Assembly (NCBI RefSeq): GCF_903893715.1
Contig: NZ_CAITNG010000039.1
Location: 1 to 64,000 of the forward strand
From: an uncultured Mucilaginibacter sp.
GTDB taxonomy: Bacteria > Bacteroidota > Bacteroidia > Sphingobacteriales > Sphingobacteriaceae
Length of the DNA: 64,000 nt
Reading direction: 5' to 3'
The notes beneath the pieces are model-generated. The model saw only the letters and a list, made by a program, of their open reading frames with translations, had not been told where the DNA came from and made no database searches. Shown here one piece after another: positions 16,836-32,631 of this stretch. Made by a program: the position numbers and the translations under genes. The stretch's first letter is position 1. Each line of letters starts with the position of its first letter.

Positions 16836-17290
16836 AAAAGCGCTGTCTCAAAAACCATAGACTTCTATTATTGAGTTGCGTTGGATTAATACGCAATTTA
16901 GCATCACCGAAAAACGTAAAGTTTATAAGGGCCATCAATTCGGCAAAAAAAGATTAGGCATGAAATCGAACCGTATAAAACTTTTAACAAAACCCGTTCT
17001 ATCCAATAACCTGCAATTGGCTTTGCAGATTTTGGCTTTGTTCGTGGCTGTTTTATCCACCCTCGTCTACAATATGATCATTATGTTCAACATCATCTTT
17101 ACCGGTAGATGATATAAAAGCTTTACAACAGGTCCGGCCCAAGCCACGCTGCCATTGGGGAGTGGCAGCGGCGGCACGGCTGACCTGATTGTAATATCTT
17201 AAGATGCCGCTGGTTTAGATAGACGCGCGTGTCATTTAAGAATTTTAACGACAAAGCCCCGTAAATTTCTTTACAGGGCTTTTCTATTTT
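16836..17290. other. Mostly non-coding stretch; possible 50-residue membrane peptide at 16960-17112
   Basis: A CTGTCTCAAAA sequence at about 16847 resembles ends of some IS elements in this phylum and may be a transposon scar. A plus-strand frame from ATG 16960 to 17112 encodes 50 residues with one hydrophobic helix (LQLALQILALFVAVLSTLVY). It has no recognisable family and no clear ribosome binding site, so I do not call it a gene. A 7-bp hairpin (GCTGCCA/TGGCAGC, 17148-17169) follows. Confidence 0.35.
17253..17283 (-). terminator. Terminator downstream of the tRNA-like gene
   Basis: An inverted repeat AAAGCCCCGTAAA / TTTACAGGGCTTT lies a few bases beyond the 3' end of the tRNA-like sequence on the minus strand, where a tRNA transcript would stop. 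Confidence 0.65.
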
Positions 17291-17377
17291 TGCGGAATGG
17301 ATGGGACTCGAACCCGTCCCCACCATAGTGGGGATGACAGGCATGTATACTAACCAGCTGAACTACCGAAAAACGCT
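17291..17377 (-). pseudogene. tRNA-Asp-like sequence (GTC anticodon loop), structurally degenerate
   Basis: On the minus strand the D-arm (GTAGTTCAGCTGGTTAG), an anticodon loop CTGTCAT, a T-arm (GGGTTCGAGTCCC) and a 3' end CCATTCCGCA resemble tRNA-Asp. The 5' acceptor strand (TTTTCGG) cannot pair with the 3' strand beyond two bases. The 3' half of the anticodon stem is replaced by a 7-bp self-complementary hairpin, TCCCCAC-TATG-GTGGGGA. It therefore looks like a remnant rather than a working tRNA. It overlaps the end of the GIY-YIG gene, whose last codons (FFGSSAG) are tRNA sequence. Confidence 0.6.
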
Positions 17378-17631
17378 ACACAATTTCTATTCGAGAGAAT
17401 AAGCTTTTCAATTTGAGCATGTGCATACTTCTTCAAGGACCGCTCTCGTATCAAAGCTTCTCGTTTTGTCGGCAATTCTTCAATATAAACAAAAGCCCAT
17501 GGCATTTTCCTCAACGTGTAAACACACTCCCCGTTGTTGTGCTGCGACAGCCTGTTTATCGGGTTTTCGGAGAAGCCTTTGTAATAGCTGTTGTCAACCT
17601 CGCTCTGAATGACATAAACGTAAAACGCCAT
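17350..17631 (-). CDS. GIY-YIG (URI family) endonuclease next to a tRNA remnant
   Basis: The 93-residue product carries the GIY-YIG motif as FYVYVIQS...YYKGFS, with RLSQHNNG and a conserved Glu in the RREALIRE-like segment (KREALIRERSLKK), as in single-domain URI-type nucleases. The frame is open from 17691, but those extra residues translate a tRNA 3' end and its terminator, so ATG 17631 is the start. The C-terminus runs into the tRNA-Asp-like sequence. With a second tRNA 3' end at 17663-17681, the layout suggests a small mobile unit that inserted at a tRNA gene and rebuilt its end. Confidence 0.85.
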   Translation of the reverse strand: MAFYVYVIQSEVDNSYYKGFSENPINRLSQHNNGECVYTLRKMPWAFVYIEELPTKREALIRERSLKKYAHAQIEKLILSNRNCVAFFGSSAG

Positions 17632-17640
17632 AATCGAAAA

Positions 17641-17670
17641 AAGCCTCACTATTGTGAAGCTTTTTTTGCG
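17641..17670 (-). terminator. Terminator behind the second tRNA 3'-end copy
   Basis: On the minus strand, AAGCTTCAC-AATA-GTGAGGCTT (one mismatch) is preceded by A residues and followed by T residues, directly after the tRNA-3'-like sequence at 17663-17681. It looks like the original tRNA terminator, left upstream of the GIY-YIG gene. Confidence 0.6.
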
Positions 17671-17681
17671 GAATGGACGGG
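17663..17681 (-). repeat. Second copy of the tRNA-Asp-like 3' end
   Basis: TTTTTGCGGAATGGACGGG matches 17287-17305 at 18 of 19 positions, in the same orientation. The two copies flank the GIY-YIG gene as direct repeats about 375 bases apart, as expected for insertion at a tRNA 3' end. It could equally be the edge of a larger integrated element. Confidence 0.65.
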
Positions 17682-17691
17682 TCATGAACAT

Positions 17692-18107
17692 CGTTCATAA
17701 CTGTCTATATTTCACGTATTTATATATTCAAAAAATCAACTACTTTACGAATCACGCAATGGATAAATGATTCTAAATCGTTGAATAAAAATACATAAAT
17801 TAATAATAATATCAATAATTTTAATTGTAATGTAGTTGTAAACTCACAGTCGTTTCCATAGGCGACGTAGGAAACATCATGGGACCATCTTTTAATTAAT
17901 AAAAAAGGCGGACTAAGTCTTCATTCTTGAGGAAAATGGTTTATAGGGTTACTTGCTATTAAACTTCCTCAAAGCAATTAAATCTGCTATTTAAGTTATT
18001 GATTTAAAACATTTTTCAACAAAAAACACTTATCCATACAGCGTTTACATATTTCAGTAACCTACGCATGTTGCTTATTTATTAAAGGTTGATAATGATT
18101 AGGGGGC
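17692..18107. other. AT-rich stretch without a recognisable gene
   Basis: No reading frame here resembles a protein and no tRNA is seen. The sequence is clearly more AT-rich than the genes on the left. It may hold the promoter of the broken response-regulator gene that follows. Confidence 0.5.
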
Positions 18108-18493
18108 ATGAAAAAAAGCATACTAATAATCGAAGATGATGAAGTGATCAGGGATAGCCTTGCTGAATGCTGGTCCTTGAACGATTTCGCGTGATTACGG
18201 CGGATTGGGGTCTGGCGGCAGTGTTACTTGTTCGGGGGCAACTGCCGGACCTGATTATTTGTGATACACAGATGCCGGGCATGAATGGATATGAAGTTTT
18301 AAGTTCCTTAAGAGAAAATCTGTTTATCTGTCACATCCCCTTTTTCTCAACTGCAAATTCAGAAAACAGGGAGGCGCAAAAAGCGAAATCCCTTGGTATT
18401 CAAAATTACCTGGTCAAGCCATTTGATGGGTTTGAGTTGATGAACTGCGTAGAGAAATGCCTATTAGAGAGCAACCGGAGAGGCCTGTTTTGA
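18108..18493 (+). pseudogene. Single-domain response regulator broken by a frameshift
   Basis: ATG 18108 starts a receiver domain (MKKSILIIEDDEVIRDSLAEC, acidic pair present) that hits TGA after NDFA. One base earlier in phase, the same domain continues with FRVITADWGLAAVL, the phosphoacceptor region LIICDTQMPGMNGYE and the conserved Lys in YLVKPFD, ending at 18493. Adding one base near 18187-18190 would restore a 128-residue CheY-like protein. There is no output domain. The gene precedes the proton ATPase gene by about 180 bases. Inactivation or a sequencing slip are both possible. Confidence 0.8.
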
Positions 18494-18672
18494 TGATTAA
18501 CCCGATAGAAAGTAAACGCATCTGCAAAGCCGCAGGCTTCGCTCTTGATTTTCACCTTTTTACGTGATCATCAACAATCATGATGACAAAATATGAGTGG
18601 AAAGTATATCAGGTAAGGGTTTTACTTTTCACTTCAGTTTAATACTTTCCGAAAAATTATAATCGATCAACT

Positions 18673-21084
18673 ATGGAACTTTCTCCGGGTGCACCTCATA
18701 TCTCTGACCCGAAGTCGGGTGATGGGCAAGGTTCGAAATCTACCTCCTCTGTAGAAACAGTTCAAAAACCGAAAATATCGTCGAATGGGCTTACAACTGC
18801 GGAAGCCATTACGCTGCTAAAGAAATATGGCCTAAATGCCATGCCGGATACCAGCGTGCATCCGCTGCGAATGGTACTCCAGAAGTTCTGGGCGCCTGTT
18901 CCCTGGATGCTCGAAGCGGCCATCATCCTTGAAATGGTCCTCGGTAAATATGTAGAGGCTTCGATCATAGCCACGCTCCTACTGTTCAATGCTGTCCTTG
19001 GCTGGTTCCAGGAAAGCCGTGCACAAGCTACGCTCACGGCATTAAAATCCCGTCTTGCTCTTACTGCATCCGTCAGGCGTGACGGTATTTGGAAAACGTT
19101 GGCCGCAACGGAATTGGTTCCGGGCGATGTGGTTAAACTCTCGCTCGGCGGTGTTGTGGCAGCAGATGTAACCCTAACCGGCGGTGAAATATTACTTGAC
19201 CAATCTATGCTTACCGGCGAATCCGTACCTATCGAAGCAAGCAAAGGCTTTCAGACGTATGCCGGGGCGCTGGTTCGGCGCGGTGAAGCCGAGGCAGAAG
19301 TTACGGCAACAGGCGCTAATACTAAATTTGGCCGGACGGCTGAACTTGTCCAAACAGCCCATGTTGAAAGTACCCAACAGAAGGCTGTACTAATTGTGGT
19401 GCGTAATCTGGCGTTCTTTAATGGCTTCATGATCGTTGTTTTGATAACCTATTCATGGTTTCTCAAAATGCCGGCGGCAGGGATCGTACCCCTTGTTTTA
19501 ACGGCTATACTGGCGTCAATCCCTGTTGCCCTGCCAGCCACTTTCACCCTGGCCGCCGCGATAGGCGGAAGCGCACTTGGAAAGCTGGGTGTTCTGCCGA
19601 CCCGACTTTCCGCAGTGGATGAAGCAGCATCCATAGTGGTTTTATGCGTCGACAAGACCGGTACCTTAACCCAAAATGCGCTGACGGTGACAGTGGTTCG
19701 CCCAATGTCCGGTTTCGATGAAGCGCATGTTCTGGCATTGGCTGCCTTGGCGAGTTCTGATAGCGGGCAGGACCCGGTGGAGGTCGCTATCCGTGCAGCA
19801 GCAGTAAGTGAAAAGGTGACAGATCCGCCGAAACTGGTGGCATTCACCCCATTTGATCCGGCAAAAAAAATGGCGGAGGCGACCGCTACAGATTTAACAG
19901 GGACACTGCAACATATTCTGAAAGGTGCCTATGACACCATTGCCGCGCTTGCCAAGCCTTCACCGGACGCGACAAAGGCAGCAAAGGAACTGGAGGCACA
20001 AGGTTATCGTGTAATGGCTGTAGCCACCGGTGTTCCGGCGGAGATAAGACTAGCCGGACTCATCGCCCTTAGTGATCCGCCGCGCAAGGACTCAGCAGCG
20101 CTTGTTATTGAACTTGACAGACTTTGTATTCGCACCGTGATGGTAACGGGCGATGCACCGGCTACAGCGGCCATAGTGGCAAAGGCCGTCGGTCTTCATG
20201 GCTCGGTATGTCCGCCCGGACCAATTCCTGATCGGGTTACCCCGGACCAATATGCAGTTTTCGCCGGGGTACTGCCGGAGGATAAATACAAACTCGTTAA
20301 GGCTTTTCAAAAAGGCGGCCACATCGTAGGTATGTGCGGTGACGGGGCAAATGACGCTCCTGCCTTACGCCAGGCGCAAATGGGTATTGCTGTTTCTACT
20401 GCAACCGACGTTGCCAAATCAGCTGCAGGCATGGTACTGACCGAACCGGGCCTTTCGGGCATCGTTGCCGCAGTCAAAGAGGGGCGAACTACGTTTCAAC
20501 GGATATTAAGCTACACCTTAAACTCCATTACCAAAAAGACGGTGCAGGTACTTTTCCTGACCATAGGGCTGGTTATGACCGGCCATGCGATTTTGACACC
20601 GCTACTAATGGTTATTATAATGATCACAGGTGACTTCCTTGGTATGTCATTAACCACAGACCATGTGCAGCCTTCCCCCGCCCCGAATGCCTGGCGTATT
20701 AGCAACCTTACTATCGCTGGCGTTACGATGGGGTTAGGGGAACTAGTGTTTAGTCTATCTGTTTTAGCTTTTGGGATCTACGGGATGAAGTTCAGCACCG
20801 GGGAGCTTCAGACACTGGCTTTCGTGATTATCGTGTCCGGCAACCAGGCCACAACTTATACCAACCGTGAGCGTCGGCATCTTTGGTCTTCACGACCAAG
20901 CAACTGGCTGATTTTTTCGTCTATAACGGATTTGGTGATCGCGTCGGCACTGGCCATCGGAGGCTTTGCAATGCAGCCTTTATCAGGACTGATGGTAGCC
21001 GGCACATTCGCCGCTGCAGTAATATTTGCATTCTTACTGGACTTGGTGAAGGTTCCGGTTTTTCGACGGCTTAGTATTACCTGA
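18673..21084 (+). CDS. Plasma-membrane-type P-type H+-ATPase (P3A)
   Basis: The 803-residue protein has an actuator domain with TGES, the phosphorylation motif DKTGTLTQN with D327, and the hinge motif GDGANDAPAL at about 556. The helix before the phosphorylation domain carries IPVALPATF, as in proton pumps of the fungal and plant type rather than calcium or metal pumps. About ten membrane helices are expected. A Ser/Thr/Pro-rich N-terminal tail of about 40 residues precedes the first domain, and there is no long C-terminal regulatory domain. It should export protons at the cost of ATP. A frameshifted response regulator lies upstream and an exporter operon downstream. Confidence 0.93.
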   Translation: MELSPGAPHISDPKSGDGQGSKSTSSVETVQKPKISSNGLTTAEAITLLKKYGLNAMPDTSVHPLRMVLQKFWAPVPWMLEAAIILEMVLGKYVEASIIATLLLFNAVLGWFQESRAQATLTALKSRLALTASVRRDGIWKTLAATELVPGDVVKLSLGGVVAADVTLTGGEILLDQSMLTGESVPIEASKGFQTYAGALVRRGEAEAEVTATGANTKFGRTAELVQTAHVESTQQKAVLIVVRNLAFFNGFMIVVLITYSWFLKMPAAGIVPLVLTAILASIPVALPATFTLAAAIGGSALGKLGVLPTRLSAVDEAASIVVLCVDKTGTLTQNALTVTVVRPMSGFDEAHVLALAALASSDSGQDPVEVAIRAAAVSEKVTDPPKLVAFTPFDPAKKMAEATATDLTGTLQHILKGAYDTIAALAKPSPDATKAAKELEAQGYRVMAVATGVPAEIRLAGLIALSDPPRKDSAALVIELDRLCIRTVMVTGDAPATAAIVAKAVGLHGSVCPPGPIPDRVTPDQYAVFAGVLPEDKYKLVKAFQKGGHIVGMCGDGANDAPALRQAQMGIAVSTATDVAKSAAGMVLTEPGLSGIVAAVKEGRTTFQRILSYTLNSITKKTVQVLFLTIGLVMTGHAILTPLLMVIIMITGDFLGMSLTTDHVQPSPAPNAWRISNLTIAGVTMGLGELVFSLSVLAFGIYGMKFSTGELQTLAFVIIVSGNQATTYTNRERRHLWSSRPSNWLIFSSITDLVIASALAIGGFAMQPLSGLMVAGTFAAAVIFAFLLDLVKVPVFRRLSIT

Positions 21085-21244
21085 TGATGTTTGTTTGAAC
21101 ATCCACATGTTTTCAACCTAAATATACAATGGAGTTGCATCTATTCATAATAAAACTGTTTAATAGCCTGATTTTCAATCGATGCAGGTTTATATGATGA
21201 TATGCGTAACTTTAGAGACTCAATTGCCAATTACGTAATATATC

Positions 21245-21958
21245 ATGCCCGGAGATCATAAAATTGTCGCAAGACTGGTAAAAGCCGGAAAGGAATACAA
21301 AATGGGTGATACAATCATCACGGCGTTACAGGCTTCCTCTGTCGATTTAAGGTCAGGTGAACTTACGCTCATTATTGGGCCTTCTGGTTCGGGAAAAACG
21401 ACATTACTCTCCTTGTTTGGCTGTGTTATCTATCCAAGTTTTGGGGAAGTGTGGATCAACGACATCAATGTCAGTCAGCTTAGTGAAAATAAGCTGGCAA
21501 AGATCCGGCTGGAAAAGATCGGTTTTGTTTTTCAAAAATTCAACTTAATCGCTCCGCTAACCGCCCTTGAAAATGTAATGATGCCTTTGCAATTGCAAGG
21601 CGTTGCTGACAAGGTAGCAAAACAAAAAGCAACCGACGCACTTGTCAAAGTAGGTATGGGCGACCGCTTGAAAAATCTCTCCAATGATCTAAGTGGTGGT
21701 CAGCAGCAACGGGTTGCCATAGCCAGAGCTTTAGTAACTAATCCCGAAATAATGCTGTGTGATGAGCCTACTGCATCTCTTGACATCAAAAGCGTAAGTA
21801 TTGTGATGGACGAACTGAGAACGCTGGCGAAACAAGGTAAGGCGGTTGCCGTGGTAACCCATGATACCCGCCTCAGACCATTCGCAGACCGTATTGTTTA
21901 TGTTACCGATGGTGCAGTAAGCGATAAACCTATAGAAGAAGAAATAGAACCCCACTAA
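21245..21958 (+). CDS. ABC transporter ATPase (DevA/LolD/MacB type)
   Basis: The 237-residue protein has Walker A GPSGSGKT (45-52), Q-loop FQKFNLI, signature LSGGQQQR (about 148-155) and Walker B IMLCDEPTAS (about 167-176). It is first in a four-gene operon followed by an adaptor, a permease and a TolC-type channel. Together they form a DevABC-like tripartite exporter in which this subunit powers MacB-like mechanical transport. The gap to the adaptor gene is nine bases. Confidence 0.93.
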   Translation: MPGDHKIVARLVKAGKEYKMGDTIITALQASSVDLRSGELTLIIGPSGSGKTTLLSLFGCVIYPSFGEVWINDINVSQLSENKLAKIRLEKIGFVFQKFNLIAPLTALENVMMPLQLQGVADKVAKQKATDALVKVGMGDRLKNLSNDLSGGQQQRVAIARALVTNPEIMLCDEPTASLDIKSVSIVMDELRTLAKQGKAVAVVTHDTRLRPFADRIVYVTDGAVSDKPIEEEIEPH

Positions 21959-21967
21959 AATCAGGAT

Positions 21968-22921
21968 ATGAAACAGCTTTTTTATTGTTTTACGGTGTTA
22001 CTTGCGTTGGCCGGATGTTCGGGTAGTCCGAATGACAAAACAACTACTAACGCACCGCCTAAAGCTAGCGTGGCCATAACCCAGGTAGTTGGTATTGGCA
22101 AGATCGTTCCGGAACGTGACATCATTCAGCTTTCATCACCAGTAAATGGCATTGTTGAACATATTTATAAAAATGAAAATGACTCTGTTAGTGCCGGGGA
22201 GACTGTATTGGAGTTGCAGCATGCGGTTGAAAGCGCGCAGGTAAATCAGCTTTCAAGCGAGGTGAATACGCAGTATGACCAGATAAAAGCAGACAATGCT
22301 GCTGTTGAAGAATACCAAGCAAAGTACAATAACAGTGTATTGGAATTACAGCGGCTGCAAAGGTTGCTAGCTAAAGGTGCAGAAACACAACAAGCGGTAG
22401 ATGACGCTAACACCAGCGTAAAGGGCTTTCAGTCGAACCTTAGCCGTTTGCAGGCTAATGCCCAGGTTTCCAAGAGTAAATTAACAGAGACAAAAGCAGC
22501 CCTTGAAGTGTCCAGACAGCAATTGGACCAGAAGATCATTAAATCTCCCGTGAAGGGGAAAATACTTGAAATAAGCACCCTCGTCGGCAGTGCTGTGAAT
22601 ACGCAAACCCCATTCGTCCAAATTAGCCCGCAGGGCAAAACCATAGCCGACTGCGAGATCGATGAATTATTTGCTGATAAGATCAGCAACGGCCTAAGGG
22701 CATGGGTGCGGAACACCGGATCATTGGACACTTTAGCAACAGGGACCGTTTATTTTACTTCGGGTTTCCTGAAAAAGAAATCACTTTTTACCGACCAGGC
22801 CGGCGAAAAGGAAGACAGGCGGGTTAGGGAAATAAAAATAGTGCTGGATAAGCCTGAAAAGCTATTGCTTAATGCAAGGGTTGAATGTGTGATTGATATT
22901 TCGACTAACCAAAAGAGATAA
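21968..22921 (+). CDS. HlyD/DevB-type membrane-fusion lipoprotein
   Basis: The 317-residue protein has a lipoprotein signal with lipobox LAGC at Cys17, a biotinyl-lipoyl-like half (VGIGKIVPERDIIQLSSPVNG), a long coiled-coil hairpin (about 75-185, rich in Gln/Glu/Leu) and a beta-barrel domain. This is the layout of adaptors that link an inner-membrane pump to TolC. The stop lies four bases before the permease start. Confidence 0.9.
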   Translation: MKQLFYCFTVLLALAGCSGSPNDKTTTNAPPKASVAITQVVGIGKIVPERDIIQLSSPVNGIVEHIYKNENDSVSAGETVLELQHAVESAQVNQLSSEVNTQYDQIKADNAAVEEYQAKYNNSVLELQRLQRLLAKGAETQQAVDDANTSVKGFQSNLSRLQANAQVSKSKLTETKAALEVSRQQLDQKIIKSPVKGKILEISTLVGSAVNTQTPFVQISPQGKTIADCEIDELFADKISNGLRAWVRNTGSLDTLATGTVYFTSGFLKKKSLFTDQAGEKEDRRVREIKIVLDKPEKLLLNARVECVIDISTNQKR

Positions 22922-22925
22922 TAAA

Positions 22926-24053
22926 ATGCTTAAGACCGCCTGGGAGTTTATCAGATTTGACAAAGCGAAGAGTATCGGCGTGATCGTTGGTATTTTGATC
23001 AGCACTTTTTTGATCGGGCAGCAACTGGGCGTATTCTTTTTTTTAACCGGCTTAATGGGATCGCTTGCCACTAACGTTAAGGCGGATATTTGGGTGGTTG
23101 ACAGCAAAACGGACGATGTGAACCAGTTGGGCAAGTTGGATATCCGTACCCTAAGGGCGGTGCAGGGACTCAGCGGAGTGAAGGAAGCTTTCCCCATATT
23201 AATCACCGGGGCATCGTGTAACTATAATAATGGCACCAGTGGTGCTATCACGTTGATTGGCGTTGACATATCCAAATTAAACACCGTATTAGATTCCAGT
23301 AAGATCATTGCCGGTAAACCTGCCGACCTGCAAATGGATGGTGCCGTAAGTGCTGAATTTTTTGAGAAGAAAAATATCGGCGATAACATCAATCTCGGAA
23401 CCGATTTTGAGATCAACGGCAAACGCGCCTTTTTTGCGCTGCAGACTAAAGGATTCCGTGGGTTTGGCAGCAGTATTTCCGTTACTACCATTGAACGCGC
23501 CCGGTTTTATTCCAACCAATCGGTTAATAGCGTTAGCGCCGTTTTAGTCAAGCTGCTACCGGGTGCCAATGCCGATGACGTTGTTGCCAGGATAAATAGT
23601 ACCATTAGCGGCGTGCGTGCCTGGCCTTCGCAAGCGTTAGCTAAATCAACCATCGAAAAAATTCTAGGCTCAAGCGGTATCGCGTTAAGCACCGGCACCC
23701 TGATTGTTTTCGCGCTGATAGCCGGGTTTTTTATCATCGGATTAACTATGTATTCTTCTGCGCTTGACCGCCTCAAAGATTACGGCACATTAAAAGCTAT
23801 TGGTGCAGGTAACGGGTATATCAGGCGGCTGATATTAACGCAGGCTATGTTTTTTGCTATTGCCGGGTTTGTTATCGGTATGCTTTTGCTCGAAGGGTTT
23901 CGTATGGGCGTCGCGAAATCCGGCCTAATATTCAGTTTTTCACCGTTGGTCATATCAGGCATGTTTTTAACAATTGCTTTAATTGCTTTGGGCGGAGCAT
24001 CATTTGCATTACGAAGGATTAGCAGTGTTGAACCGGCGTCTGTTTTTAATTGA
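22926..24053 (+). CDS. DevC-type ABC permease (FtsX/MacB fold)
   Basis: The frame is open from 22893, overlapping the adaptor gene, but ATG 22926 gives the normal N-terminus MLKTAWEFIRFDKAKSIG, so it is preferred (375 residues). The first helix (about 16-40) is followed by a periplasmic domain of about 200 residues and then three helices (about 255-280, 305-330, 340-365), the four-helix FtsX/MacB arrangement. It is the membrane part of the tripartite exporter encoded by this operon. Confidence 0.9.
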   Translation: MLKTAWEFIRFDKAKSIGVIVGILISTFLIGQQLGVFFFLTGLMGSLATNVKADIWVVDSKTDDVNQLGKLDIRTLRAVQGLSGVKEAFPILITGASCNYNNGTSGAITLIGVDISKLNTVLDSSKIIAGKPADLQMDGAVSAEFFEKKNIGDNINLGTDFEINGKRAFFALQTKGFRGFGSSISVTTIERARFYSNQSVNSVSAVLVKLLPGANADDVVARINSTISGVRAWPSQALAKSTIEKILGSSGIALSTGTLIVFALIAGFFIIGLTMYSSALDRLKDYGTLKAIGAGNGYIRRLILTQAMFFAIAGFVIGMLLLEGFRMGVAKSGLIFSFSPLVISGMFLTIALIALGGASFALRRISSVEPASVFN

Positions 24054-24069
24054 TCAATAAAAAACTAAT

Positions 24070-25464
24070 ATGATCCGTTCAACCAAATTTCTGCTAAAAG
24101 TGGTAAGTAATCTAAAAAAACAATTAACAGGTTTTGCTATTATCCTGCTATTGTTGCGTTCCACTATTCCCGCGTTTGCGCAAACTACCGTTTCGTTGCG
24201 GCAGGCTATTTCCAGCGCCCTAGCCAACAGAAAAAACATCCAGGCAGGTAAAATGGACCTGACGATTCGGAAACTGCAAACAGAAGCCCTGCTCAAAAAG
24301 TACTGGCCGCAAGTATCGGTTGAATATAATTATCTGTACAATCCCATTTTACAGACATCGATTTTACCGATTGGTATTTTCAATCCTGCTTACCCTGTTG
24401 ATGCAACGAAAAGCATACAGTTTGGTACAAAATGGTCGCAGGCCGCTGGTGTTACCGTAGTACAGCCTTTGCTGGATGTTTCCATATCCAGGCAAAAAAG
24501 TGAATCAGAACTTCAGGAACGAATCGCAGTAGCATCACAGTTGCAATCAGAATATGAATTGGTTTACGATGTGGCCCAGGCCTATGCCAATATTGGTTTG
24601 CAGCAGGAACAGATTGGAGTAGCCATTGCAGATACCGCCAGAACATGGATAAGTTATCAGTTGCAGAAAAACAAATTTTTAGCAAAACGACTGCTAAAAT
24701 CGGACCTCAATACCGCCCTGATTAATCATCACAATACCCTGCAAAAGTTAGCAGATGCCGTATCGCAGTTGGTTGAAAATAAAGTGTACCTCTTGTTCCT
24801 GATCGGGCAAGATGATGTTGCCCATGCGGACATCGCTATCGACATGAGTTTATTCAAAAACAATAACGCGGAACGATTAGCCCTCGTCCCCATGAACGAC
24901 TCTATACCTGAATTACAGCAACTGGCTTTACAGAGCAAACTTGCCGCTTTGCAGGCAGAGACAGAAAAAGCTAAATATTTACCAACCATCAGCATGAAAG
25001 GATTTTTAGGTGCTAATCAATATACCAACCAGTTTAGCCCAATAGCGGCAAATTCGTGGTTTGGTTTGAGTTATGTGGGCCTGGATGTGAAACTGCCGCT
25101 GCTTATTGGCGAAGACAAACAAAATAAATTACAGCAACTAAAATTACAATCGTACCAGTACAATGACCAGCGCGATGATAAATATGCCGGGTACGTTAAA
25201 GATGCTGTAACGGCAAAAATAAAAACCGACCGTTTGCTGGCACAACTAAAAACGCTGAATGAAAATATATCGCTGTCAAAGGAAACCATTCAAATCATGC
25301 AGGACAGGTTTGATGAAGGCCAGGAGACGGCATCAACTTTAAATACGGAGGAAGTAAGCCTCGAAAGTATTTTGGCAAACTACGCGCTCGGGGAAAAACA
25401 ATTGTGGATTTTTCAACTGGATTACCTGAAGGCGACAGGCAGATTGAATAAATTATGGCAATAA
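24070..25464 (+). CDS. TolC-family outer membrane channel protein (exporter operon)
   Basis: The 464-residue protein has an N-terminal signal region ending near AFAQ and two OEP-type repeats with long helices (TVSLRQAISSALANRKNIQ at the start, STLNTEEVSLESILANY late). It follows the permease by 16 bases and supplies the outer-membrane exit duct of the DevABC-like pump. The exported substrate is unknown. Confidence 0.9.
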   Translation: MIRSTKFLLKVVSNLKKQLTGFAIILLLLRSTIPAFAQTTVSLRQAISSALANRKNIQAGKMDLTIRKLQTEALLKKYWPQVSVEYNYLYNPILQTSILPIGIFNPAYPVDATKSIQFGTKWSQAAGVTVVQPLLDVSISRQKSESELQERIAVASQLQSEYELVYDVAQAYANIGLQQEQIGVAIADTARTWISYQLQKNKFLAKRLLKSDLNTALINHHNTLQKLADAVSQLVENKVYLLFLIGQDDVAHADIAIDMSLFKNNNAERLALVPMNDSIPELQQLALQSKLAALQAETEKAKYLPTISMKGFLGANQYTNQFSPIAANSWFGLSYVGLDVKLPLLIGEDKQNKLQQLKLQSYQYNDQRDDKYAGYVKDAVTAKIKTDRLLAQLKTLNENISLSKETIQIMQDRFDEGQETASTLNTEEVSLESILANYALGEKQLWIFQLDYLKATGRLNKLWQ

Positions 25465-25807
25465 CGTAAAAAAACCTACGAAGCAAACCTCTCAACGGGA
25501 GTTATCTTTAATTCTTTCTTTACATTGTGGCGAGGTATACGAACAATGAAATATGCCAGTTTTATCCTGGTTCAGTTGTTTAAATAATTGATCAGCAGTT
25601 TTCAGTCTTATTATGCGCAACCCGGGAAATTGATAAGTTTTCTGGCAATTTATTTGTGAAATAACATAACGTTGTTTTAGCGAAAAAGCAACAATATTGA
25701 ATTAGCACAAGCGTCCATAAGTAGACCTGGTAATTATAACAATCATCATTGATAGCCCATTAGGTGAACATTCTTGGAGATAACTGCGGCGAAAGGCAAC
25801 AATGCCA
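25465..25807. other. Intergenic stretch between convergent operons
   Basis: No gene or RNA was recognised. It lies between the ends of the exporter operon (plus) and the DUF202 gene (minus). No strong terminator hairpin was found. Confidence 0.4.
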
Positions 25808-26212
25808 TTAAATACTTGGCAATAAATAGTAGATAAGTAGCGCACTTATAATCAGGATACCAAGTGTGAGCAATAGTAACAACAAGAAAGATGGGTGATA
25901 GTTGTGATCCTGCAACTGCCGCTCTGTCCGCTTGTATCGGAAGAAGGCAAGAAGTGCCATTATTGCGCCTGTCGCCACTAAAAATATGCCGATCTCTGCG
26001 GAATAGCCCTTTCCTGGTAAAATAGCTTTCCCTGCTAAAACGATGGAAATTTGTTTGATGAACAAGGCGAACTTAACCACGACAAAGCCGAATGCCATTA
26101 ACGCAATGCTGGTTCTTATCCAGGCTAAAAAAGTTCTTTCGTTGGCTAAATGATCACTTGGATTATTTAATAGCTTATTTAGTTTGTCGGGATGCATGAT
26201 TTTTATAAACAA
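25808..26212 (-). CDS. DUF202 (YidH-type) membrane protein
   Basis: The product is at most 134 residues; ATG at 26197 (MHPDKLNKLL) may be the true start. The DUF202 signature LANERTFLAWIRTSIALMAFG is followed by three membrane helices in all. The family is found in inner membranes with unknown function. It lies 74 bases downstream of the cytochrome c gene, so it may be read through from the oxidase operon. Confidence 0.85.
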   Translation of the reverse strand: MFIKIMHPDKLNKLLNNPSDHLANERTFLAWIRTSIALMAFGFVVVKFALFIKQISIVLAGKAILPGKGYSAEIGIFLVATGAIMALLAFFRYKRTERQLQDHNYHPSFLLLLLLTLGILIISALLIYYLLPSI

Positions 26213-26286
26213 ACTACGTTTTTACAATTTTTTTCTATTTGCTGACTAGTGCTTTCAAAACACGCTATGGTTTAGTTCTCTAAATG

Positions 26287-26904
26287 CTATTGCACAATCC
26301 GATGACTTGTTTTACTGAATTTCGTTTTAAGTAAATCAATTAAAGTCTTCATTTTGATGGCGAAGAAGAACGTCAACAGTGATAGAAAGATCAGACCTCC
26401 AAGTACGAACCATGTTCTATAGTCCCCAGGTAATATGGGTGTATGCGCGCCCGGAAGATCAATGTAAACAACTTGTCTTACAAAGCCGGATTCGCCTTTA
26501 TAAGGGTCGTTATCTTCCACCGCCGCCGTTGTTACCGGCAGCTGTGCCACGGCGTTTTTACTTTCCGATCGGATATAGCCGATGATATTTCTGATGTCCT
26601 GATCGCTCAGATTCGGGTGGTTTGGCATCACCGTTTGGTTGAATTGGTTAAACAGGCGTACAGCGGATGTGTCGCCGCTTTTGATCACCGTTTGCGAAGC
26701 ATGAACAAAGCTGATAATCCAGGCTTCGCTGTGACGGTCGAAAACATTGCGCAGTGCGGGCCCAACAACTTGCGTTTGAATAGCATGGCAGGAAGTACAA
26801 TTCTGCTGAAATACCGCTTTCCCTTCAATATTATCAGGATCGGCAGCATGGCTAACCCTGGCTAACGAAACCAGGATAATTACACTTAAAATGGTTTTTT
26901 TCAT
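26287..26904 (-). CDS. Membrane-anchored class I cytochrome c
   Basis: The 205-residue protein has a signal peptide (1-20), a haem-binding CTSCH (C36, C39, H40), a probable axial Met93 in TVMPNHPNLS, and one C-terminal membrane helix (about 162-182). It should carry electrons on the periplasmic side, most likely to the ba3-type oxidase encoded in the same operon. It is the last gene of that operon, nine bases after the SCO gene. Confidence 0.92.
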   Translation of the reverse strand: MKKTILSVIILVSLARVSHAADPDNIEGKAVFQQNCTSCHAIQTQVVGPALRNVFDRHSEAWIISFVHASQTVIKSGDTSAVRLFNQFNQTVMPNHPNLSDQDIRNIIGYIRSESKNAVAQLPVTTAAVEDNDPYKGESGFVRQVVYIDLPGAHTPILPGDYRTWFVLGGLIFLSLLTFFFAIKMKTLIDLLKTKFSKTSHRIVQ

Positions 26905-26913
26905 GTGGGTGTT

Positions 26914-27573
26914 TTATTTGTTTGGAGGGCTCACTTTTAACCTGCTGATATCCGTTATCAACCTGCTTATTTCATCTTCGTCCGTACCGTCGTAGTAGCC
27001 CCTTATATGGTTTTGACGATCTACCAGTACAATTTTATCACTATGGATGAAATCACCCTCGCCGCCATCGCCATCAGTAGCAGTAATAAATAACCCGTTA
27101 CGTGCAAACCTGTAAAGTTCAGGTTTACTTCCGGTGCCCAGTTGCCACTGCTGCAAATCAATGCTATGCTTTACAGCATATTTTTTCAGCTTAGTGGGTG
27201 TGTCGTGGTAGGGATCTACGGTAAACGACAACAGGCGTACTTGTTTATCATTCGGAAAAGCTTGCTGGATAAGCCGCATACCGGCCATCATTTTAGGACA
27301 TATGGTCGGGCAGGAAGTAAAGAAGTAATTCACCACCCAAACCTTTTCCTTTACAAAGCTTCCTTTAAGCGCACTGCTATCCGTATTCAGAAAGGCAAAG
27401 TCCGGCACAGTAAGGTGCGGCACATCAGCATCTTCGATTGAAGTTCCGCTGTGATAATAAGGTAGTCCTTCAATATTGTTCTCGTACCACCGCATCGCTG
27501 TGAATACGAGAAGGGGCACAATAATTATCAAAGAAAAAAATAAAATGATTGCCTTTCGGTTTACCTGTTTCAT
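26914..27573 (-). CDS. SCO-family copper chaperone
   Basis: The 219-residue protein has one N-terminal membrane anchor (about 9-27) and a thioredoxin-like domain with the copper-binding CPTIC motif (C88, C92) and a later His in DFIHSDK. SCO proteins deliver copper to, or reduce, the CuA site of oxidase subunit II. It lies 21 bases after the subunit I gene, which supports that role here. Confidence 0.93.
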   Translation of the reverse strand: MKQVNRKAIILFFSLIIIVPLLVFTAMRWYENNIEGLPYYHSGTSIEDADVPHLTVPDFAFLNTDSSALKGSFVKEKVWVVNYFFTSCPTICPKMMAGMRLIQQAFPNDKQVRLLSFTVDPYHDTPTKLKKYAVKHSIDLQQWQLGTGSKPELYRFARNGLFITATDGDGGEGDFIHSDKIVLVDRQNHIRGYYDGTDEDEISRLITDISRLKVSPPNK

Positions 27574-27594
27574 AACAGCTATATTGTGGTCATA

Positions 27595-29283
27595 TTAATG
27601 GTCGTCGCCTGATTTGAGCAAATTTTGCGGACTATCCGGCTGAAATTTATTAGGGACTGCTTTTGAGTATTTGAAAACACTGATCAGTGCTGGCACATAG
27701 GTGGTCATTACCAGTACCACCATTAAAATAAGCCAGGGCTTCATGGTCAATAACAGTGGCATATCTTTTTCCTCATGCAATTCCTCCGATTCAGGTAAAA
27801 TCAGCTGAGGTTCGTTCACACGTTTTCCTATGGCTGTCGCAAAAAATACGATGAAGTAAATAATTGCAGCAGCACCCATGATGATGCCGCCAACCAGGGT
27901 CGTCGTGGTAGTCGGTACAAAATGCTGGTTGAACTGCGGGCTAGCCGGATTAGTGTAAGATAATCCTAGGTTCGTCCTGCGGGGTTCGCCCATTAAGCCA
28001 CCAGACATCAATCCATGGGACAGGAATGCGATCCCCACCATCCAGATATAAGGTACCATCACCGCAAACGTTTTAAACTTCAATGCCTTTCCGGAAACGG
28101 AACTGTACATGTACAAACTCATACCCAGGATCACCAGGATCACGGGGCCTGCAACGGTCATGTGAAAATGACCGGGTACCCAGTCTGTATTGTGAACCAG
28201 CTGATTTAATGTATAGGAGGCATTTACGATGCCGGATAATCCACCGAAAATGAATAGGATAAGGCCACATATAAAGTAACCGAAAAGGTAGTTATCAACT
28301 TCAAAATAAGGTTGTTTCCACATCCAGCTAAAAACACCTTTCGCGCCCCGTTTCCTTGCGCCATATTCTAAAGAGGCCGCAACGGTAAAGGCTGTCATAA
28401 AGCTGGGAATAGCGACGGCATAAGTTAAAAGGCTTGCCCAAAGCTTTGTACCCGGTGTAAAAACCGGTTCGCTGAACTGGTGATGAACACCTACGGGCAT
28501 CGATAAGATCAGGAACAGTAAAAAAGCGAGCCTTCCCGCATTACCGGAATAAAGTTTGCTGCCTGCTACTTTGGGTAATATGGTGTAATAAGCTACGTAA
28601 GCGGGCAACAGCCAGAAATAGACCAATGGGTGCCCGAACATCCAGAACAGCATACGGGTGAGGGGAACATTGATGCTGTCTGTCCAGCCTAACGACCAGG
28701 GGGTTAGAATAACCAGGGTTTCGTAGGCAACAGGCAGCGTGCTGATCAGCCAGATGGAAAAATTAACAAAAGTTCCAAGAACTGCCAATGGCATTTTGGA
28801 CTTCGGATTTTCCTTTTTCCAGTCATACCATATTTTGGTCCAGCCGAAAAAGGCAATCCAGCTACCGACAATAAGCAAGGCGGTACCCACGTAAAAAAAA
28901 GGGGAGGCTTTTAAAGGGGCGTAAAAAGTATATAATGCCTGGGCTTTCCCGGTTGCCATAGCAACCAGATCCAATAAGGTACCGGTCACCATCAATCCCA
29001 TCGAAATCTGGTAAGACAATTTCGGCGGTTCCCGTTTTAAATAGTAGGCAATGGTGACGTGCCCGAAAACAACGGCAAAAAACGTGGTCAGCACGATAGC
29101 ATTTATAACACCATGCATGGTTAAACCCTGGTAATAATTGATACCTGCAACCGATGACTGGTGAATAACGCCTGCCCTGTAAATCGTTTGCATTACGCCA
29201 TTGTAGCACCCCAGTATAAAGAGTGTCATGGGCATTAGTAAGCCGGTCAATATCACCGTCCTGTATGGTTTGCTAATGTTCAT
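27595..29283 (-). CDS. cbaA: ba3-type cytochrome c oxidase subunit I
   Basis: The 562-residue multi-helix protein has all metal ligands of B-family haem-copper oxidases: low-spin haem H57 and H374, CuB ligands H218, H267 and H268, the cross-linked Tyr222 (H-x3-Y as in the ba3 type), and high-spin haem ligand H372 in PGHFHM. It reduces oxygen to water at the inner membrane and pumps protons. The B-family assignment rests on the closely spaced H218/Y222 and the partner genes. The subunit II gene lies one base upstream. Confidence 0.93.
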   Translation of the reverse strand: MNISKPYRTVILTGLLMPMTLFILGCYNGVMQTIYRAGVIHQSSVAGINYYQGLTMHGVINAIVLTTFFAVVFGHVTIAYYLKREPPKLSYQISMGLMVTGTLLDLVAMATGKAQALYTFYAPLKASPFFYVGTALLIVGSWIAFFGWTKIWYDWKKENPKSKMPLAVLGTFVNFSIWLISTLPVAYETLVILTPWSLGWTDSINVPLTRMLFWMFGHPLVYFWLLPAYVAYYTILPKVAGSKLYSGNAGRLAFLLFLILSMPVGVHHQFSEPVFTPGTKLWASLLTYAVAIPSFMTAFTVAASLEYGARKRGAKGVFSWMWKQPYFEVDNYLFGYFICGLILFIFGGLSGIVNASYTLNQLVHNTDWVPGHFHMTVAGPVILVILGMSLYMYSSVSGKALKFKTFAVMVPYIWMVGIAFLSHGLMSGGLMGEPRRTNLGLSYTNPASPQFNQHFVPTTTTTLVGGIIMGAAAIIYFIVFFATAIGKRVNEPQLILPESEELHEEKDMPLLLTMKPWLILMVVLVMTTYVPALISVFKYSKAVPNKFQPDSPQNLLKSGDDH

Positions 29284-29284
29284 C

Positions 29285-29737
29285 TTAATAATATTTTTTA
29301 GGCGTAATGATAATCTTGCCCATCATGTACTGATGTCCGGCACCGCAATATTCATGACAGACTACGCGGTAAACACCGGCATCTTCAAAAGTGACGGAGG
29401 TCTTCGTGATCGCCCCGGGTACGGCCATCAGATTGACACCTTTTTTTACGATATTGAACCCATGAACTACGTCGTCCGAAGTAAGGTACAGGTCGATGGT
29501 GGATCCTTCGGGAAACGTTAAGTCCTGCGGCATAAATCCCCACATTTTCGCTACAGCATAAACTTCATAGGTTTTGTCATCCAGCTTTTTCACATGTGGA
29601 ACCTTATAAGTGCCTGAATAGGTCACACAGGCAGGCACATCAATATTCCGGCTGAAGTCGTTATAAAGAATTGCGAAGAAAAAAACGGATAGTAAAAGGC
29701 CCGCAAGCACGATTACCCTGATCTCATATTTATTCAT
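29285..29737 (-). CDS. cbaB: Cytochrome c oxidase subunit II (CuA)
   Basis: The 150-residue protein has one N-terminal membrane helix (about 7-25) and a cupredoxin domain with complete CuA ligands: H92, C127, C131, H135 and M138 (CHEYCGAGHQYMM). Its short form with a single helix matches ba3-type subunit II. It accepts electrons from cytochrome c and passes them to subunit I. Confidence 0.93.
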   Translation of the reverse strand: MNKYEIRVIVLAGLLLSVFFFAILYNDFSRNIDVPACVTYSGTYKVPHVKKLDDKTYEVYAVAKMWGFMPQDLTFPEGSTIDLYLTSDDVVHGFNIVKKGVNLMAVPGAITKTSVTFEDAGVYRVVCHEYCGAGHQYMMGKIIITPKKYY

Positions 29738-29746
29738 TGCGATAGA

Positions 29747-29884
29747 TTAATAGTGTCTTTCTAACTGAAGATTATAAAGACTAAACCAGATCAGTGCGGT
29801 AAGCGCCAGTAAGAGTGTGATAAAAACAATGGTACCAACAGGCACGAAATGTTCTTCTTTTTCCTTGAGCTGTTCTTCGTCCAT
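29747..29884 (-). CDS. Cytochrome oxidase subunit IIa-like mini-protein, 45 residues
   Basis: A 45-residue frame starts with ATG 29884. An acidic head (MDEEQLKEKEEHFVPVG) is followed by a single membrane helix (TIVFITLLLALTALIWFSLYN). Size, head and helix match the IIa subunit of ba3-type oxidases. It begins the oxidase operon, nine bases before the subunit II gene. A TACTTTTG sequence (29901-29908, minus strand), a -7-like box, lies just upstream. Confidence 0.8.
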   Translation of the reverse strand: MDEEQLKEKEEHFVPVGTIVFITLLLALTALIWFSLYNLQLERHY

Positions 29885-30251
29885 AGTTATAATTATAAGG
29901 CAAAAGTAAAATGCCTCATTTATGAAGAGTATTGTTAGTAAGTAAAGCTATACTGCCACAGGGCTTTAGCGCATAATGCTTATCATAGTAATTTCATATA
30001 CGTCGTAAATTAAATTGGAACACAGAATGAAATAATGAGTCTAATAATCGCAGAAATACTTGACGCGTTCAAAGTTCACCGTATAAGAGTATTTAATGTT
30101 ACATTATATTAGTTAAAGCTTACATAATTCACACCCTGCAAAGGGTATTTCAGTTTTTTATACAACACCAAATAGTAGCTTTGATAACGTTTGTATGCCA
30201 GCTATAACTAAGGAATGCGTCAGATATGAAACTTAGTTATCAAAATCCAGT
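29885..30251. other. Intergenic stretch upstream of the oxidase operon
   Basis: Apart from the -7-like box at 29901-29908 no gene, RNA or palindrome was recognised. The region separates the oxidase operon from the redox/sulfur block. It lacks the GTAACA palindrome found at five promoters further right. Confidence 0.4.
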
Positions 30252-30464
30252 TTAGTGATTATTATCTGGTTTCCTAGTACTAATCCTAAAAGGATAGTAT
30301 AAAGGGCAAAAGCTTATGAAGCTGGTTAAAATAAAGATAGCGGCGAAGACAAAGAGAATTATCGCTAATGTGCCCGACACCACGCCAGTATAATACAAAA
30401 CCGCAATTAAGATAGCCGCGAGGATTCGTAATGAACGGTCAAGAGTACCCATATTCTTTTTCAT
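30252..30464 (-). CDS. DUF2892 membrane protein
   Basis: The 70-residue product has two membrane helices and a C-terminal SFCPLYYP segment with a conserved Cys, typical of DUF2892 (the membrane part of YgaP, a rhodanese-linked family). A palindrome GTAACAAATGTTAC lies 46 bases upstream with a -7-like box between, so it is a likely member of the Crp/Fnr regulon here. Two other DUF2892-type genes occur at 32.2 and 40.6 kb. Confidence 0.82.
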   Translation of the reverse strand: MKKNMGTLDRSLRILAAILIAVLYYTGVVSGTLAIILFVFAAIFILTSFISFCPLYYPFRISTRKPDNNH

Positions 30465-30480
30465 ATCGTTAATTTTTTAT

Positions 30481-30524
30481 TAAAATTACCAGATATAAAA
30501 GAGCTTTTCGGTAACAAATGTTAC
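30481..30524 (-). promoter_or_regulatory. Crp/Fnr-type operator and promoter, DUF2892 gene
   Basis: A perfect palindrome GTAACA-AA-TGTTAC (30511-30524, centre 30517.5) is followed on the minus strand by TAATTTTA (30488-30481), one change from the TAnnTTTG -7 box. The distance from centre to box end is 36.5 bases, the same as at the four other sites. Confidence 0.75.
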
Positions 30525-30593
30525 ATACAGAAGTAATGTACCTTTTTAAGAATGCTTAGTGCGCATTATTAGATCGATTACTATCTAAAACAT

Positions 30594-31229
30594 TCAAGAA
30601 TCGAAATCACGCAGTAATTTGATTTCATTGCGGTACAATAAAATCTTACCATTATTTTCTAAGATTTTCAGTAGTCTTGATACCACAACTCTTGAAGTCG
30701 CCAGTTCATCAGCAATCTGATAATGTGAAGCCTTGATAACGCTTGAGCCGGAAAGACGTTGTTTTTCTTTCAGGTAAGCAATCAGCCGGTCATCCAGTTT
30801 ATGGAAAGCTATGCTTTCAATTGATTTCAACAGTTCGGAAAAACGCTCCGCAAAACTGCGCATAATGTAATTTTTCCAGCTTGGGAATTTATGCAGCCAT
30901 TCGTCCAGTTTATTGTGCGGAATAGCGATGATGTCTACGTCCCCCTCCGCAATCGCTCTCACATCGCTTTTCTTTTCTTCCAGGCAGCAGCTGTAAGCCA
31001 TGGAACAGGTCTCGTTATTTGAAAGGTAATAGAGAAGGATTTCTTTTCCATTTTCTTCCTTTTTCAGTACTTTCAAGGTTCCCTTGATCACCAATGGCAT
31101 CATTCGGATATATTTGCCGTAATCCATGATGATGTCGCCTTCTTTAAAATGCTTTAGCTCACCAAAATGTTTAATCTCTTCGATCAATGCAGGCTCAAAA
31201 TCAAAACCGAGATTAACTAAGTTATCCAT
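30594..31229 (-). CDS. Crp/Fnr family transcription regulator
   Basis: The 211-residue protein has an N-terminal cyclic-nucleotide-type effector domain (about 15-125) and a C-terminal winged helix-turn-helix (about 150-205: HYQIADELATSRVVVSRLLKILE). It has three cysteines close together, C75-x5-C81-C82, in the beta-roll region; there is no N-terminal FNR iron-sulfur cluster motif. It lies amid sulfide, persulfide and oxygen metabolism genes whose promoters share a GTAACAnnTGTTAC palindrome, so it is the best candidate for the protein binding those sites. Redox or sulfur sensing by the cysteines is inference. No copy of the palindrome was seen before its own start. Confidence 0.9.
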   Translation of the reverse strand: MDNLVNLGFDFEPALIEEIKHFGELKHFKEGDIIMDYGKYIRMMPLVIKGTLKVLKKEENGKEILLYYLSNNETCSMAYSCCLEEKKSDVRAIAEGDVDIIAIPHNKLDEWLHKFPSWKNYIMRSFAERFSELLKSIESIAFHKLDDRLIAYLKEKQRLSGSSVIKASHYQIADELATSRVVVSRLLKILENNGKILLYRNEIKLLRDFDS

Positions 31230-31300
31230 AACGCTAAGTTAACAGTATTTCAGGTAATAGTAATGATTAGTGTCAAACGTTATGTACTGTGGCGCGGTAA

Positions 31301-31771
31301 TTAGATTAATTGCCTTAAAGATGGCAAAAACCTTCCGGTATGCTTAATGTAATCGCTGTAGCCTGCAAAGCGCTTTTTCAATAGCTTTTCCTCATAATTC
31401 GATTTAAAATAGAATAACAGGAACAATGCCAGCGTCACCAGTAACCGGAAAGCATCCGCAGAATTGAGGCTATATCCTGCAGCCGCGAGCAAAATTCCGC
31501 CATAAATAGGATGACGCATATACCTGTAAACACCGTTAGTGATTAAGTGACTATCTTGAGATGGGGTAGGAAACGGGGATAAGTTCACGTTTAACTGAAG
31601 CGTGGCAAGGATTAGGATTATAAATCCTGTTATCTTAAGGGATAAACCGACCCCACGCCAAAATGTATTGAGATCTATCTTTATCGCTAACGGGGAAAGG
31701 ATATAAATAAGAAATAGAAGTAGTTGTATCCCTACAAATACCAAGTCTTTAGATTTGATGGACTTAAACAT
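31301..31771 (-). CDS. Isoprenylcysteine carboxyl methyltransferase-like membrane protein
   Basis: The 156-residue protein has about four membrane helices and the family motif RYMRHPIYGGILLAAAG (about 84-100), with a C-terminal Glu-rich loop (NYEEKLLKKRF). This is the phospholipid/isoprenylcysteine methyltransferase-like fold common in bacteria. The substrate is unknown. It lies 71 bases upstream of the Crp/Fnr gene on the same strand. Confidence 0.85.
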   Translation of the reverse strand: MFKSIKSKDLVFVGIQLLLFLIYILSPLAIKIDLNTFWRGVGLSLKITGFIILILATLQLNVNLSPFPTPSQDSHLITNGVYRYMRHPIYGGILLAAAGYSLNSADAFRLLVTLALFLLFYFKSNYEEKLLKKRFAGYSDYIKHTGRFLPSLRQLI

Positions 31772-31868
31772 GCTTACTTCTAATATTACAGATATTTTAA
31801 AGCACCCGTGAAAATTTTAAATCTGTCACCGACTTTTATCAATGACAGATATACGCAGAACTCAAGGA

Positions 31869-32180: not shown

Positions 32181-32233
32181 TTTATGTTATTTTAAATCTT
32201 TTTAAAGGCGGCAGAAAGCCGCATAAAGTGTAA

Positions 32234-32470: not shown

Positions 32471-32519
32471 TTTGCTGAGATTATATTACCAGGCTTGATT
32501 GAAGATCTGCCTGCTGAAA

Positions 32520-32563: not shown

Positions 32564-32571
32564 ATATGAAA

Positions 32572-32592: not shown

Positions 32593-32631
32593 GGTTTAAA
32601 TAGCGTCTGAATGGTCTAACACCGATTTATT

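Follow-up and report, generated by a model that had tools for sequence, protein, structure and literature searches.

REP sequences and their RAYT transposases tie a small nuclease to palindromes, the RAYT enzyme being a transposase of the Y1 (HUH) type. Integrative elements that target tRNA genes keep the tRNA functional and repeat its 3' end at their far side. Free-standing homing endonucleases usually carry a separate DNA-binding region beside the catalytic domain, and the active site of GIY-YIG enzymes is made of conserved tyrosines, a glycine, an arginine and a glutamate. One free-standing homing endonuclease of the GIY-YIG kind is SegB, from T-even phages, with the motif RAWTSGAAC; the available part of the report on it (PMC13096335) also notes that the donor allele is typically a poor substrate for free-standing enzymes.

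We compare these systems with a cassette first read in a stretch of 64,000 nucleotides from an uncultured Mucilaginibacter sp.; "the window" denotes this whole stretch. The only gene of the cassette is a GIY-YIG gene, flanked by copies of a tRNA gene, one of which, the pseudo-tRNA, bears a hairpin. Going by the available part of PMC13096335, the SegB system shares with it an intron-free GIY-YIG enzyme, a gene beside tRNA genes, a tandem amplification of tRNA and nuclease gene, and a microhomology between the 3' end of the nuclease gene and the 5' end of a tRNA. In our own comparison, the reverse complement of the motif, GTTCSAWTY, fits T-loop sequences such as GTTCGAATC. However, SegB belongs to phages, whereas the cassette is chromosomal and its proteins, of about 80 to 96 amino acids, are apparently the catalytic domain alone; the available text on SegB mentions no hairpin-bearing pseudo-tRNA, while the cassette has one. 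REP/RAYT pairs differ from the cassette in the fold of the enzyme, and its palindromes sit inside tRNA copies. The resemblance to tRNA-targeted integrative elements lies in the preserved functional tRNA and the repeated tRNA 3' end; unlike them, the cassette has no integrase, is about 350 bp long, and contains the hairpin-bearing pseudo-tRNA. By profile, the closest solved relatives of the nuclease are the small GIY-YIG proteins of UPF0213 (1zg2 and 1ywl, entries named hypothetical proteins), followed by SLX1.

The likeness to SegB, including the fit of its motif to the T loop, leads us to favour a homing-type element, in which a DNA break at a tRNA gene would be followed by copying through repair, the hairpin being a destroyed target. 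On balance, then, we take the feature in the window to be what is left of a free-standing element of the homing type, minimal in size at about 350 bp and specialised on tRNA genes. By its apparent working, the cassette seems to be a variant of the free-standing homing-endonuclease kind, rather than a proven member of it. We found no published description of it in the open-access literature, most subscription papers lying outside that scope; in the available part of the 2006 survey of the superfamily (PMC1564403), the string "Bacteroid" is absent, and the three passages with "tRNA" do not concern nucleases beside tRNA genes.

The window locus and its protein

The window comes from genome G000, whose assembly of 4.02 Mb has 161 contigs and 42 tRNA matches. 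Read 5' to 3' on the minus strand (17681-17254), the order is tRNA-Asp 3' end, terminator, GIY-YIG gene, pseudo-tRNA-Asp, terminator. The features, with the evidence for each, are the following.

17668..17681, minus strand: left copy of the tRNA-Asp 3' end, 14 nt, CCCGTCCATTCCGC (match to the intact tRNA-Asp)
17640..17667, minus strand: terminator-like hairpin (about 17663-17640) and T run, directly before the nuclease start codon (sequence)
17350..17631, minus strand: GIY-YIG nuclease gene, open frame of 93 amino acids (Pfam PF01541, frame, conserved columns)
17292..17367, minus strand: pseudo-tRNA-Asp, about positions 6-75 of the intact tRNA (alignment to the intact tRNA-Asp)
17317..17334, no strand assigned: 18-nt perfect palindrome within the pseudo-tRNA-Asp (same site and TCCCCA..TGGGGA type in genome G011)
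17254..17286, minus strand: terminator-like hairpin downstream of the pseudo-tRNA-Asp, about 17286-17254 (sequence)
17682..64000, no strand assigned: probable distal part of an integrative element (its boundary and its link to contig C142 are presumed)

The left terminator-like hairpin is placed as in G011 and in locus L044, and the coordinates bear out the sequence-only reading that both sides of the gene carry a tRNA 3' end and a terminator. That reading also gave the last seven codons of the gene as tRNA sequence: the tail does lie in tRNA sequence, but seven is one or two too many, since the overlap comprises the last five sense codons and the stop (GGT AGT TCA GCT GGT TAG).

The pseudo-tRNA-Asp aligns over 76 columns, at 84% identity, with the intact tRNA-Asp gtc of the same genome (G000:C142:33570). 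From about position 6 to the anticodon it is preserved with one substitution, the anticodon GTC being kept, and on the 3' side of the palindrome the T arm and the acceptor 3' strand follow, again with one substitution. The broken stems and the 7-bp hairpin are thus as first described: the acceptor 5' strand is gone, and the perfect 18-nt hairpin TCCCCAC-TATG-GTGGGGA, with a stem of 7 bp and a loop of 4 nt, stands in place of the 12 nt CGCATGGGGTCG, that is, the 3' half of the anticodon stem and the variable loop. It is the only compact TCC..GGA palindrome of the 64-kb window.

A normal or functional tRNA-Asp at the site is rejected, because its cloverleaf is recognised by neither ARAGORN nor Rfam: in the 64-kb window the former finds no tRNA gene, and the latter no family at the gathering threshold, while an intact matching tRNA-Asp lies on contig C142. 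Simple decay of a tRNA copy is rejected as well, since the palindrome occupies a fixed site and recurs in G011 and elsewhere; the word "decayed", used at first, was misleading for a copy that is patterned. When the 76-nt stretch is shuffled, a perfect 7-bp stem appears somewhere in 86 of 5000 shuffles, so that the single case would be no more than suggestive; chance is excluded by the recurrence of the palindrome at the same site in G011 and across the family.

The protein matches PF01541 with 54.9 bits (curated cut-off 22.6, E=1.1e-14). This is its sole domain match, and no DNA-binding domain was found in it; members of the family, at about 80-96 amino acids, appear to be bare catalytic domains. 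In an alignment of 12 sequences, A3, columns Y6, Y17, G19 and E63 are invariant and R27 nearly so. The window protein has no NCBIfam model, and five of the 12 relatives have weak matches to a group I intron endonuclease model. The gene itself lies outside any intron or intein: it sits between tRNA copies, in a window with no Rfam match at the gathering threshold. Of 192 distinct nuclease genes, 169 are free of stops across the matched part, and dN/dS has a median of 0.17 over 65 pairs; the protein is therefore kept by selection.

Recurrence of the cassette at tRNA genes

Relatives of the window protein occur in 30 of the 61 genomes of the genus. A profile of the 12 aligned proteins, most of which had already been seen beside tRNA genes or pseudo-tRNAs, a choice that may bias the counts, has matches in 62 of the 101 genomes of the family and, at E <= 1e-15, in 173 of the 395 genomes of the phylum, or about four in ten. 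The nearest named matches of one relative's nuclease are in Mucilaginibacter, then in other Bacteroidota. Loci were taken by score, and regions were later fetched for part of the listed matches that had no locus (40 regions). A gene that recurred identically together with its 40-nt flanks entered the count a single time, and matches of fewer than 55 profile positions were dropped; the 192 genes above are what remains, once duplicates are removed, of the nuclease genes scoring 60 bits or more in the fetched loci.

ARAGORN places a tRNA within 300 bp of 141 of these 192 genes, on the same strand in all 141 cases and on the opposite strand in none. The other 51 are mostly inner members of arrays, or have their tRNA farther off in the locus. 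Eighteen genes have no tRNA at all in the fetched stretch, and 15 of them have a downstream tRNA-like match with a score of at least 56, a threshold without a formal null that compares with about 30 to 45 for stretches lacking an obvious tRNA copy. Among genes below 60 bits, 2 of 13 have a tRNA within 300 bp.

The isotypes include Val, Asp, Asn, Met-type CAT, Ala, Ser, Leu, Arg, Gly, Pro and Thr. In named genomes, one Val-type protein query gives 80 loci, with a tRNA within 300 bp on the same strand in 60, on the opposite strand in none, and no such tRNA in 20. They are mostly Val loci in Bacteroidota, with tRNA-Gly in two Fidelibacterota records and single records for Asn in Ignavibacteriota, Glu in Omnitrophota and Ser in Liptoniibacteriota; two loci under actinobacterial names (L290 and L297) may be mislabelled bins. 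Beyond Bacteroidota, at least the Gly, Asn and Ser cases show hairpin-bearing tRNA copies on inspection by eye. In the Fidelibacterota tRNA-Gly loci L302 and L313, repeated pseudo-tRNA-Gly copies with D- and T-loop hairpins lie upstream of the intact tRNA. The Val-type query found no copy in either the phage or the plasmid collection, and a Leu-type query found none in viral contigs.

In the commoner order, an intact tRNA is followed by a terminator and by a nuclease gene that runs into a pseudo-tRNA of the same isotype: among 91 loci of this order with a clear pseudo-tRNA, 82 have the nuclease stop codon at the pseudo-tRNA start or past it. A full cassette closes with a second terminator, and a 5' hairpin-bearing pseudo-tRNA is often found between the promoter and the intact tRNA. 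An alternative order, frequent for Ser and Arg, has the pseudo-tRNA upstream and the intact tRNA after the stop codon. Usually the 3' pseudo-tRNAs have no acceptor 5' strand. Several genomes carry tandem arrays with units of about 350-370 bp. Annotation can mislead here, ARAGORN labelling hairpin-bearing pseudo-tRNAs as tRNA-Stop, Gln or Ile (L046, L064, L072, L077, L059).

A hairpin is present in 105 of 118 rows for 3' pseudo-tRNAs and in 62 of 86 rows for 5' ones, the tally being of perfect stems of at least 6 bp, with array copies counted separately and some 5' pseudo-tRNAs more than once; 13 and 24 rows, respectively, have no such stem. Hairpin positions recur and are specific to the isotype. 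They replace the anticodon arm in Val (28 to 45) and in Leu and Ala (27 to 44); T-arm positions are found in Asp (51 to 59), Leu, Asn and Gly, and D-loop positions in Asn (L004, L069). Most palindromes start with TCC and end with GGA around variable inner pairs, also in other phyla, whereas those of Ser and Arg differ (CCAAAGG.., CCTGCC..). The density of TCC..GGA palindromes is 1.65 per kb in the nuclease zones and 0.149 elsewhere in the fetched sequence, the latter value coming partly from array copies.

The two sides of the stem vary together: in 23 Val-type sequences covariation is 0.260, versus 0.130 when shuffled (0 of 500 shuffles reach it), and three of the seven pairs change on both sides. 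Fourteen of the 23 come from a flank search that was blind to pairing and was given 32 Val genes and 70 other loci; it yielded 20 distinct segments, several of them with the same hairpin. The search missed 20 Val genes, nine of which we included by eye; the other eleven were omitted, three for repeating a hairpin, five for having none at the site, one for a broken hairpin and two for long loops. Because of this choice the share of paired cells is inflated, and since copying errors at near-palindromes can also yield perfect palindromes, covariation is no proof of selection.

On a tree of the nucleases, the isotype changes 26 times, against a shuffled mean of 105.5 and minimum of 96 (150 loci, 11 isotypes), and the host family 42 times, against a mean of 66.0 and minimum of 60 (n=154). 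The nuclease lineage thus carries its isotype along, more tightly than it follows the host lineage. The tree is a quick one, without a mixture model, of 190 of the 192 genes (two with more than one stop were omitted; 184 are labelled). One row was used per locus, some isotype labels were taken from the pseudo-tRNA, and the labels Gln, Lys, Phe, Tyr, Ile, Stop and unknown were excluded as probable misreadings of pseudo-tRNAs.

Occupancy of the sites differs between species. A prfA/tRNA-Asp query gives 30 fetched loci with 19 tRNA-Asp genes, and a full-length nuclease match in one of them; a Gly-Leu query gives such a match in five of 30, and the readable Gly-Leu loci without a cassette mostly have no 5' pseudo-tRNA-Leu either. 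At a tRNA-Ala locus in G320 and its relatives, G320 has the nuclease and the 3' pseudo-tRNA, G584 has both pseudo-tRNAs and a nuclease gene (with an internal stop codon, as judged by eye), and G582 has neither nuclease nor 3' pseudo-tRNA on the downstream side, part of its record reading N. The Ala series displays both flanks of the empty site. We found no homology between the sequence 3' of the G011 cassette and the other fetched prfA/tRNA-Asp loci, so that the Asp empty site is seen on the tRNA side only. All these differences are between species, and no strain-level insertion polymorphism was seen among them.

The intact tRNA-Asp has the same sequence in 16 copies from occupied and unoccupied loci, that of G011 included, and four tRNA-Leu sequences are common to occupied and unoccupied loci. 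A recoded rescue tRNA, as in a natural cleave-and-rescue drive, is therefore unsupported.

Probable history of the window copy

G011 has the complete cassette: prfA, tRNA-Asp, terminator, nuclease and a pseudo-tRNA-Asp with two TCCCCA..TGGGGA hairpins, one of them at the site of the window palindrome. The two nucleases are 59% identical over 87 amino acids. In G000, contig C142 carries the intact tRNA-Asp with a gene that we take from its frame to be prfA, 84% identical to the G011 protein, and then a tyrosine integrase (PF00589, PF13102) and conjugation-type genes. The 14-nt tRNA-Asp 3' end is present both on C142 and at 17668-17681 of the window, on two contigs that are not joined; these 14 nt are all that the window retains of the tRNA ahead of the nuclease. 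Going by these sequences, the copy at 17668..17681 is probably the far, attR-like attachment site of an integrative element that occupies the tRNA-Asp on C142. The likeliest course is that this element entered the 3' end of tRNA-Asp, leaving the nuclease and the pseudo-tRNA at its far end; it would have come after the cassette, parting the latter from its intact tRNA.

The window copy thus looks like a cassette remnant, with an integrative element at tRNA-Asp standing between it and the intact gene. If so, the suggestion that the site is the left attachment site of a larger element is probably also right, given the integrase beside tRNA-Asp and the 14-nt repeat, on contigs that are not joined. 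The left flank of the window has one gene in common with G011, that of an M28 peptidase (74% identity) found near tRNA-Asp in G011, a weak synteny because the relative orientation differs. On the other side, positions 17682..64000 contain oxidases, transporters, DUF932 and defence-like genes. Within this region, a four-gene set at 47263-53537 (399, 190, 1219 and 284 amino acids), with weak matches to JetC and JetD (E ~1e-5), is possibly a divergent Wadjet-like system, and at 55584-57441 a multiubiquitin protein (PF14452) adjoins a DUF6791-ThiF protein, possibly a bacterial ubiquitin-like conjugation set.

Genome G000 has eight matches to PF01541, two in long open frames (608 and 469 amino acids) and six small. 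Three of the small genes are close to intact tRNA genes, one is the window gene, and two are away from tRNA. In L004 the nuclease lies between a 5' pseudo-tRNA-Asn with a D-loop palindrome and the intact tRNA-Asn; in L005 its frame is broken, and it lies between an intact tRNA with a CAT anticodon and a palindrome-bearing pseudo copy; in L006 it is 67 bp downstream of tRNA-Leu. A solo pseudo-tRNA-Pro that contains TCCCGACTTTGGTCGGGA, with a TCCCGA..TCGGGA hairpin, lies at about 880-1048 of L030 (G000:C13), upstream of an intact tRNA-Pro ggg. No nuclease match is reported near it in the fetched stretch, and it is probably the scar of a lost cassette.

How the cassette may spread

Under the homing reading, the nuclease would break DNA at tRNA genes of its own isotype, and repair from a copy that bears the element, with the tRNA and terminator repeats as homology, would copy the cassette in. 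It would land beside a tRNA gene that remains intact, while in the pseudo copies the hairpin would do away with the site of the break; tandem arrays, losses and solo pseudo-tRNA scars would come from recombination of the repeats with one another. The early suggestion of a tiny homing-type insertion at tRNA genes is the best-supported class, the cassette recurring across isotypes, genomes and phyla and having empty sites, with cleavage and transfer as presumed steps. Several observations sit less easily with it. Since the intact tRNAs are unchanged in occupied genomes, an enzyme that cuts plain tRNA genes would threaten its own host, and protection must come from elsewhere. The TCC..GGA ends common across isotypes are better explained by recognition of the hairpin itself, and count against the homing reading. 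So do the single catalytic domain of the window protein, the insertion differences seen between species and not between strains, the lack of phage or plasmid copies in searches with one query each, and the pseudo-tRNA rows in which our criterion detects no stem.

The unchanged intact tRNAs and the common hairpin ends speak for a mobilisation directed by the hairpin, along the logic of REP/RAYT with a GIY-YIG enzyme: the nuclease would recognise and cut palindromes, and the tRNA flanks would merely provide the homology that directs the cassette to tRNA genes of matching isotype. We consider this unlikely, though worth keeping in view. The nuclease has a distant profile similarity to the structure-specific SLX1, and the common ends extend into other phyla. 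There are also sister GIY-YIG genes away from tRNA that are flanked by repeats: among 12 low-scoring genes, 10 have a 14-mer common to both flanks (L001 and L071 do not), versus none of 420 control pairs in either orientation, a result that keeps the hairpin-directed explanation alive. The different palindromes of Ser and Arg tell against it, as does the statement, in the available part of PMC13096335, that a phage enzyme of the same superfamily cuts tRNA genes. As an observation in its own right, loci L002, L060, L061, L065-L068, L070, L128 and L137, mostly small non-tRNA GIY-YIG genes, have the same dispersed palindromic repeat (GTCAT.. types) on both sides, and the repeat-flanked low-scoring genes may represent a REP-like system built around a GIY-YIG gene. 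A bolder proposal, possible though doubtful in our eyes, is that the palindrome is the mark of the enzyme and the tRNA copy both an address label and a guarantee that the host tRNA survives; this one-gene unit of about 350 bp, a bare GIY-YIG catalytic domain plus a palindrome-bearing pseudo-tRNA, would be a new class of mobile DNA, joined with the generic palindrome-flanked GIY-YIG genes into a broad system over many bacterial phyla.

A role at the level of RNA, in which the substrate of the nuclease would be tRNA or the transcript of its own gene, and the pseudo-tRNA would be a decoy, an antitoxin RNA or a 3' UTR regulator, strikes us as quite improbable. The covariation of the stem suits RNA as well as DNA, and the nuclease frame does enter the pseudo-tRNA in most loci; but the usual lack of the acceptor 5' strand in 3' pseudo-tRNAs argues otherwise, the window pseudo-tRNA-Asp folds no better than shuffles (z 0.18), and the arrays, empty sites and patchy distribution resemble an element. 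Ordinary debris, that is, a tRNA end duplicated by an integrative element beside an unrelated nuclease gene and a chance hairpin, can draw on the element that appears to occupy tRNA-Asp here and on the stems found in shuffles, but is hardly credible given the same set of parts at many tRNA genes, with hairpins at fixed positions.

Returning to the homing-type element, its interest lies in its lodging. tRNA genes are essential and conserved, and an element that resides there must leave its host alive; a single, very small enzyme and a marked tRNA copy are apparently how this family manages it. It looks like a widespread and apparently undescribed type of selfish element, one that makes its home at tRNA genes while leaving them unbroken. 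If this is true, it would account for many small GIY-YIG genes beside tRNA genes, for some pseudo-tRNAs and for misread tRNA calls such as "tRNA-Stop", and it would offer a compact, testable model for the spread of a nuclease gene without an integrase.
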